Part shown: one piece after another, positions 13,629-15,568 of the stretch
How positions within the stretch are numbered: position 1 is the stretch's first letter
Layout: every line of letters begins with the position of its first letter
NCBI GenBank assembly: GCA_001782675.1
Contig: MFPJ01000043.1
Coordinates: forward strand, 1 to 55,103
DNA length: 55,103 nucleotides
DNA from: Candidatus Levybacteria bacterium RIFCSPLOWO2_12_FULL_39_17
GTDB lineage: Bacteria > Patescibacteriota > Microgenomatia > Levybacterales > GWA1-39-11
Direction of reading: 5' to 3'
The notes under the pieces: model-generated
Told to the model about the DNA's origin: nothing
Database searches by the model: none
The model's input: the letters and a program-made list of their open reading frames with translations, nothing else
Position numbers and translations under genes: made by a program

Positions 13629-13967
13629 ATGCAATATTTCGACTTAATTTTTACATTGCATGCTCAAGATCAACTTCGAAACCGCGGCATAAAAATTTCT
13701 GAGGCTTGGGAGACATTTAAGCACCCACTTCGAACACAAAAGGGGAAATATGGAGGATTGGAATTCGAGCGTGAATTCGATAACTATAAAATTACAGTTG
13801 TTGCGATCCAAAATAATAAAAACGAATGGATAGTAAAATCGGTCTGGAGAAACCCTCCTTTACTAGGAACTGCCGATGCCAAACAAAAAGAATCTTGGAA
13901 AAAATACAATAAATCAGGCCTCTGGGGTAAAATCTGGATAACAATCAAACAGCAGATCGGCTTTTAG
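13629..13967 (+). CDS. Small hypothetical protein (DUF4258-like)
   Basis: FTLHAQDQLRNRGIKISEAWETFKHP resembles DUF4258 (HA..R...R.I....V..tl). Confidence 0.5.
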   Translation: MQYFDLIFTLHAQDQLRNRGIKISEAWETFKHPLRTQKGKYGGLEFEREFDNYKITVVAIQNNKNEWIVKSVWRNPPLLGTADAKQKESWKKYNKSGLWGKIWITIKQQIGF

Positions 13968-14119: not shown

Positions 14120-14764
14120 TTACAGTTTAGCGTTTTCATCTCCAAATACTACCTGATTTCTTCTATTCGCCCATAAATAAGCGGCAGCGTCTCTTTGATT
14201 AAATGTAGCATTAGATGAAAGCATAAAGAAAAAATTCTTCATCATTGCTTCCTGAGATCTCTTATATGCTTCACATGCAGTGTTTCCTTTAATAACAGAT
14301 ATAGCAATCAAATTAGACGGTTCTAAAAACAATTTCGCAACCTCATCTGTCAAAGGATGGTTTAATTTTAAAGGATTTCTCCCCAATATATAACTTTTTC
14401 GATAGCCTATAAAAGTTGCGGAGTGCTTCTTAGAAACCAACTCGCCAAGCACTCTTGCTGCATCGCAGCTTCTGGCATATATTATCTTATTTGCGAGTAG
14501 ATATTCGTTCAATCCAACTTTTACTAAAGTTTCATCATCATACCCAGTAATCTCAAGTTCACTCCCATGACCATTGATAAACACAAACGCAGGCTGATGT
14601 TTTTCGATGTAGCTTTTAAAATTTGCTGCTGTGGCTTTTCTTCCTCTTAAATCAAGTGTTTTTCCTTTTGTGCTTGATAATTTAACCACGTCCTCTGTCC
14701 ATAAACATAAGTAGTTTGTTGCCAAGTCATGATTAGGTCTTGTAATGAGAATGCAGTTATTCAT
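14120..14764 (-). CDS. Caspase/CHAT-like cysteine protease domain protein
   Basis: FVFINGHGSELEITG...KIIYARSCDAARVLG: His and Cys each following a hydrophobic strand, as in caspase/C25/CHAT-fold peptidases. Confidence 0.65.
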   Translation of the reverse strand: MNNCILITRPNHDLATNYLCLWTEDVVKLSSTKGKTLDLRGRKATAANFKSYIEKHQPAFVFINGHGSELEITGYDDETLVKVGLNEYLLANKIIYARSCDAARVLGELVSKKHSATFIGYRKSYILGRNPLKLNHPLTDEVAKLFLEPSNLIAISVIKGNTACEAYKRSQEAMMKNFFFMLSSNATFNQRDAAAYLWANRRNQVVFGDENAKL

Positions 14765-14766
14765 TC

Positions 14767-15015
14767 CTACGCTTCTTGGTAGATTGCTCCCGTTGCCATA
14801 TCTCTTAAATATTCTATTTGTACCTCTATTATCTCCTTACCTAAGTCATTTATTTCCTCAACGCTTTTAAGCATTTCTTCTTTTGTATACTCTGTAGAAC
14901 CAATAGATATAGTCAAATCATCCGAAGATGCTTTCAGTCTAGCCAATACTAACTTTTGCATTTCTCTCAAAATGTCCTTATCTATGTTGTTAAAATCTAT
15001 ATTGTTGGTATTCAT
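14767..15015 (-). CDS. Small protein of the protease module, unknown function
   Basis: 82-aa ORF directly upstream of the protease gene (2-bp gap), 4-bp overlap with the preceding ORF. Confidence 0.65.
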   Translation of the reverse strand: MNTNNIDFNNIDKDILREMQKLVLARLKASSDDLTISIGSTEYTKEEMLKSVEEINDLGKEIIEVQIEYLRDMATGAIYQEA

Positions 15016-15197
15016 TTTAGTATTCCTAACCTAACTAGCTTTTCTAAAATTTCTTTTCCTTTTTCTGTGTTGTTAGCAATTTCTATTTTTGCTGCATTCC
15101 AAGTTAGCTCTTCTTCACCCAAAACTACTATAATTTCATTGCGTTGATTAAGGGGTAAATTTGCGTAAATCTTTAAAAATTGACTATTTCTATCCAT
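15012..15197 (-). CDS. Small protein of the protease module, unknown function
   Basis: 61-aa ORF, ATGA-type overlap with the next ORF; NLPLNQRNEIIVVLGEEELTWNAAKIEIANNTEKGKEILEKLVRLGIL. Confidence 0.6.
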   Translation of the reverse strand: MDRNSQFLKIYANLPLNQRNEIIVVLGEEELTWNAAKIEIANNTEKGKEILEKLVRLGILK

Positions 15198-15360: not shown

Positions 15361-15521
15361 GATTTGAAGCTAAATCATCGAACATAATATTGTCTCATGC
15401 GTAAATGATCTACTATAAGATAGAAAATGGGGACTAGAATTGCTCTAATCCCCACTCTAAAACCACAAGCCGTTTCCCTGTTTGGTTTCTTACAGTTTTA
15501 AGCTATGATTTTGTAGACATG

Positions 15522-15542
15522 AAAAAAGCACCTTCCGGTGCT
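15522..15542 (-). terminator. Intrinsic terminator downstream of ftsZ
   Basis: Minus strand AGCACC-GGAA-GGTGCT-TTTTT. Confidence 0.85.
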
Positions 15543-15568
15543 CTAGTAGAAAATTGAAGTTCTAAGAC

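Follow-up and report, generated by a model that had tools for sequence, protein, structure and literature searches.

A compact cassette of three genes, encoding two small proteins of 61 and 82 aa (p61 and p82) and a predicted caspase/CHAT-fold cysteine protease of 214 aa (p214), constitutes a conserved unit in CPR bacteria and DPANN archaea. It was recognized in a stretch of DNA of 55,103 nucleotides, referred to here as the window, which is contig 43 of a Patescibacteria (CPR) genome of 0.907 Mb that is 98.9% complete. An earlier sequence-only reading had proposed a protease gene preceded by two small open reading frames, with an overlap of 4 bp and a gap of 2 bp. All three frames are present with the spacing claimed, and we can add that they lie on the minus strand. 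The same reading had suggested that a cassette of two small proteins and a protease might be undescribed. This suggestion stands, in so far as no published description of the trio was found in the open-access literature; most subscription papers and preprints lay outside the search.

Transcription of the trio proceeds on the minus strand from p61 (15012..15197) through p82 (14767..15015) to p214 (14120..14764), with the 4-bp overlap between p61 and p82 and the 2-bp gap between p82 and p214. A sigma-70-like promoter, TTGTAA-N17-TATAAT (15243-15215, minus strand), ends about 17 bases ahead of the p61 start codon. It is a consensus match only, and promoter-like sites at the locus are not above the number found in shuffled sequence. 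The genes ftsA and ftsZ lie upstream, and the interval between ftsZ and the trio contains, in addition to the promoter-like site, two terminator-like hairpins (15424..15458, minus strand, and 15525-15544). No Rfam RNA was found at the trio locus. At its other end the trio is convergent with a DUF4258-like gene (13629-13967). The 112-aa product of that gene is DUF4258/PBECR3-like, with a resemblance to RelE-like nucleases; the match is sub-threshold, and the gene is kept in both congeners.

Relatives of p61, p82 and p214, about 21-70% identical to the window copies, occur in dozens of genomes, and the closest p214 relatives with an organism assignment are Patescibacteria. In the p214 loci that were fetched, relatives of p82 and p61 stand directly upstream. 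A neighbourhood survey of the p61 family, which had been put forward earlier as a check, independently recovered conserved trios elsewhere in the phylum and in a DPANN archaeal phylum, so that p61 is a conserved partner in both groups. Gene order and strand are identical in 89 of the 89 loci that have all three genes, which mostly overlap or lie a few bases apart. The small genes are thus kept beside the protease, as had been anticipated, with exceptions only at contig ends. Comparison of close pairs gave dN/dS values of 0.02-0.16 for all three genes, indicating purifying selection. No fourth gene family recurs in at least four loci within about 6 kb, and hence a wider conserved operon was not found. 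Because relatives exist, their order is fixed, the genes are under purifying selection and no fourth family recurs, the trio is considered a real and complete unit. A chance set of reading frames is ruled out by the conservation, the invariant order and strand, and the dN/dS values.

The assignment of p214 to the caspase-fold peptidases had been based on two motifs, FVFINGHGSE and IIYARSCDAA. Both are found in the protein, and they contain the predicted dyad residues H66 (codon 14567-14569, minus strand) and C100 (codon 14465-14467, minus strand). The protein itself has no match in Pfam, PADLOC, NCBIfam or PHROG. Structure prediction, also proposed in the earlier reading, yielded a caspase-like fold: an AlphaFold2 model made with 26 homologues has a pLDDT of 97 and a pTM of 0.92, and in it a strand at 60-64 is followed by H66 and a strand at 94-98 by C100. 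With this model Foldseek returned ten matches at E <= 0.001, all in clan CD (SAVED-CHAT, caspase-11 and legumain-type asparaginyl endopeptidases), that to SAVED-CHAT (PDB 8tl0) having an E of 8e-6. In a single comparison with a CHAT profile, built from CHAT domains that Pfam finds in other Patescibacteria, the p214 profile matched with a probability of 89% and an E of 2e-6; NGHG of p214 aligned on the CHAT His motif and RSC on the CHAT Cys motif. The C14 profile gave the same dyad register at very low probability (2%), and weak matches to C25 (PF01364) were seen in 3 of 26 p214 members, the best with an E of 0.0029. Searches of the PDB with phmmer and hmmsearch gave chance matches only, except for one sub-threshold legumain stretch from hmmsearch in which HG and C of p214 are in register. 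The Pfam cut-offs of CHAT (PF12770), C14 (PF00656) and C25 were not reached by p214. The sampled genomes that bear the trio have no PF12770 match, and PF00656 is matched only in one of them (G395), at another place. PADLOC matches of the p214 alignment (A1) to Cmr5 and BovA were weak and inconsistent, and were rejected. Among full-length homologues, one from a virus included, C100 is present in 88 of 88 and H66 in 87 of 88. Nearly all p214 proteins lack a membrane segment. The view that p214 is a caspase/CHAT-fold (clan CD) protein with an H66/C100 dyad is therefore supported by the predicted structure and by the profile match in which the dyad is aligned; catalysis is inferred.

The prokaryotic caspase-like effectors known so far are large proteins of several domains, reported mostly from multicellular bacteria or CRISPR loci. 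The fold class of p214 is common to the CHAT peptidases SAVED-CHAT (PDB 8tl0) and Csx29, the TPR-CHAT of Craspase. In contrast to these, p214 is a bare single domain without a SAVED or TPR sensor, is unrecognised by the Pfam CHAT family, and is accompanied by two small proteins rather than CRISPR genes; unlike the CHAT effectors of type III CRISPR systems, it is neither fused nor linked to SAVED, TPR or Cas genes. With the caspases and metacaspases (C14), gingipain (C25), legumain (C13) and clostripain (C11), the modelled p214 has in common the clan CD strand order, in which the His follows one strand of the core and the Cys follows the next one, but it reaches no family cut-off. A further likeness, a small gene adjoining a caspase-fold gene, is to EACC1 and EACC2/TRADD-N, two-gene caspase systems in which a small conserved gene lies beside a caspase-fold gene and for which a role in conflict has been predicted (PMC7159879, PMC8195603). 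EACC1 spans the membrane by one conserved transmembrane helix, and its caspase carries large, variable C-terminal domains (PMC7159879, PMC8195603), whereas the trio has two soluble, apparently paralogous partners and a bare protease; on hydropathy, neither p61 nor p82 has an EACC1-type transmembrane helix. The EACC surveys left CPR out of their habit analysis (PMC7159879, PMC8195603). What was already known is the CHAT/caspase fold, and what seems new, judged from the open-access literature, is a bare protease with two small soluble partners. A stand-alone version of about 1.1 kb, found among the bacteria and archaea with the most reduced genomes, would show the minimal needs of protease control, and a caspase could then be studied together with its regulators in a tractable system.

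The p61 family follows the pattern F-x-K-x-Y-A-N-L-P-L..R-E-I-V-V-V-I-D..P-x-T-W-N-x-A-x-x-E-I..T..G..I-L-x-K-L. For p82, the predicted structure is helix-strand-strand-helix-helix (pLDDT 88), and comparison of this fold with the PDB gave no convincing match. The p82 profile (A2) matches p61 proteins down to an E of 6e-5, and hhalign aligned 34 columns of p61 and p82 with a probability of 40%; judged from these similarities, the two are probably distant paralogues. Their Pfam matches (HTH_41, DUF7713, MksE and others) were weak and scattered, and were rejected; no EAD family was among them. A p61 match in locus L045 resembles ribonuclease HII and was set aside as a false positive. EAD and Death-like adaptors are homotypic domains that recur in fusions with sensors and effectors; p61 and p82 were found only as separate small genes, apart from one natural p61-p82 fusion of 138 aa in a single Aenigmatarchaeota genome (L138:3600-4016, the same as L099), which has no protease adjoining it. 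That genome also holds a full, separate trio (L065). There are also solitary p61 genes, unaccompanied by p82 or p214. One of these (L137:4922-5107, in G487 C18) lies between the gene for a ClpP-fold (SDH-like) serine peptidase and that for a 212-aa protein of unknown nature, and a PglX-like methylase/restriction gene and a DUF3800-like gene are nearby. This p61 may have another protease as its partner, as part of a defence island.

In eight loci p214 is broken, truncated or internally deleted while p61 is retained; p82 is also retained, although by profile it is somewhat short in one (L114). The reverse, an intact p214 without p61 or p82, was not seen except at contig ends. When set against gene length this asymmetry is weak (P about 0.02-0.04), and some of the p214 lesions may be assembly errors. 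The restriction of clear lesions to p214 is suggestive of a protective role for p61 and p82, but is not proof of it. In a remnant of a different kind (L131:3377-3730, in G1032 C2), p61 runs on in frame into what is left of p214, its C-terminal third; an intact trio lies 1.4 kb away.

The trio has several features in common with type II toxin-antitoxin systems: small upstream genes coupled to a candidate toxin, accessory occurrence, several copies per genome and lesions in the candidate toxin. The adjacency and coupling characteristic of such systems are seen here: the gene order agrees in 89 of 89 loci, and the genes mostly overlap or lie a few bases apart. It differs from them in having two small, presumably paralogous partners and a protease as the candidate toxin, and both toxicity and neutralisation are inferred. 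That the trio is an accessory toxin/antitoxin-like or abortive-infection module, in which p61 and p82 control the caspase-like p214, is the reading favoured here, at about even odds. The patchy occurrence of the trio and the two-gene form in an archaeal virus are in its favour, whereas the solitary p61 genes, the mostly ordinary neighbours and the lack of a recurrent sensor or CRISPR gene within 6 kb speak against it. In such a module p61 and p82 would associate with each other and with the protease, and would either restrain p214 or switch it on when disturbed by a trigger, for which virus infection and loss of the module are candidates; freed in the cytoplasm, p214 would cut host proteins, leading to arrest or death of the cell. 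Complex formation is inferred from the single case in which p61 and p82 are fused and from the invariant gene order, and restraint from the lesions falling only in p214. The toxicity of p214, its trigger and its substrates are likewise inferred, in the absence of toxicity or protease data. A more specific form of the proposal is offered only tentatively, as falling somewhat short of an even chance: two paralogous helix-hairpin-helix-helix proteins would make up a heteromeric sensor/inhibitor that directly gates a bare CHAT-fold protease, in a minimal, self-contained death or immunity module that dispenses with NTPase, CRISPR and second messenger and moves between ultra-small symbiotic bacteria and archaea.

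The neighbours of the trio are mostly ordinary. Because defence-like matches are scattered among them, and no background control is available, context does not establish a defence role; one Cas4-like match was found among 75 neighbours. The role as an effector in conflict or cell suicide, raised in the sequence-only reading, remains an inference, with neither a sensor nor a CRISPR locus nor any further conserved partner adjoining the trio. It could be argued that the trio supplies only the effector of a larger conflict pathway, with p61 and p82 as adaptors and the sensor (a type III CRISPR system, a STAND NTPase or some other) elsewhere in the genome, since CHAT and caspase effectors usually stand downstream of sensors, as in SAVED-CHAT, the TPR-CHAT of Craspase and the EAD systems (PMC9729208, PMC7159879). 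Small paired adaptors would fit such a pathway, as would the solitary p61 with its ClpP-fold serine peptidase and PglX-like neighbours. This explanation is nevertheless unlikely. The genomes are tiny, no known sensor or CRISPR gene recurs within 6 kb of the trio, and a search of the window genome for p61- or p82-like domains elsewhere, at E up to 10, gave a single weak match (E 0.11).

Another possibility is a processing cassette, in which p214 is the maturation protease of p82 or p61 and the released peptide acts outside the cell or on the membrane, as a bacteriocin or a signal might. Clan CD proteases process precursors elsewhere. The fixed arrangement of small proteins and protease, with its usually tight gene spacing, is in keeping with this, and p61 and p82 are similar in size to peptide precursors, but their other properties make a precursor role quite improbable. 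Neither has a leader or Gly-Gly motif, and neither has a hydrophobic segment, the highest 19-residue hydropathy being 0.75 for p61 and 0.65 for p82. Conservation extends over the entire domain of each, for which a compact fold is predicted, and does not follow the pattern of a leader and a variable core; no transporter recurs beside them.

Within the class, 37 of 374 genomes, from 33 of 280 genera, have a relative of p214. In the DPANN archaeal phylum p61 is present in 41 of 371 genomes, with up to three p61 loci per genome. When the proteins of 84,980 species were scanned, with a single peptide as seed and hence not exhaustively, 35 loci were obtained, all in CPR, DPANN or two other archaea; the DPANN carriers were Pacearchaeota, Woesearchaeota, Nanoarchaeota, Altiarchaeota, Aenigmatarchaeota and Nanohalarchaeota. 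A scan of viral contigs under the strict requirement of exact peptide seeds returned no relatives. The trio is missing from both of the further genus members that were sampled and from three more members of the family, and in the two congeners unrelated accessory genes take its place between the DUF4258-like gene and ftsZ. This interval is a variable spot within a cell-division gene cluster. It differs in each of the three congeners (L086:5396-7836 and L087:4322-4963), and in one of them it holds genes for two membrane proteins together with a retropepsin-like gene adjoining a small HicB-like gene. In the p214 tree CPR and DPANN sequences are interleaved, with five changes between them, at least two of which are forced by well-supported branches. 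Gross misbinning is argued against because the archaeal loci are flanked by archaeal genes, including those for methanogen-type seryl-tRNA synthetase and archaellum-type ATPases. The trio is thus accessory and moves horizontally, also across the divide between CPR and DPANN. It is a concrete example of a module that these two groups exchange, and little is known of the defence repertoire of either.

It is highly unlikely that the protease serves CPR and DPANN episymbionts in attaching to their host cell or interacting with it, rather than in an antiviral function: all 35 relatives in the scan are from CPR, DPANN or other archaea, CPR and DPANN being mostly host-dependent, and the p214 homologue of a virus has a membrane segment, but only about 10% of genomes carry the trio, its occurrence is patchy even inside a genus, and the cellular proteins have neither signal peptide nor membrane segment.

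The viral homologue belongs to a two-gene form in the Methanofastidiosa virus BK063666.1 (L032:7675-8618). A 66-aa p61/p82-like protein is encoded there together with the p214 homologue, the two genes overlap by 4 bp, and the membrane segment lies at the C-terminal end of the p214 homologue.
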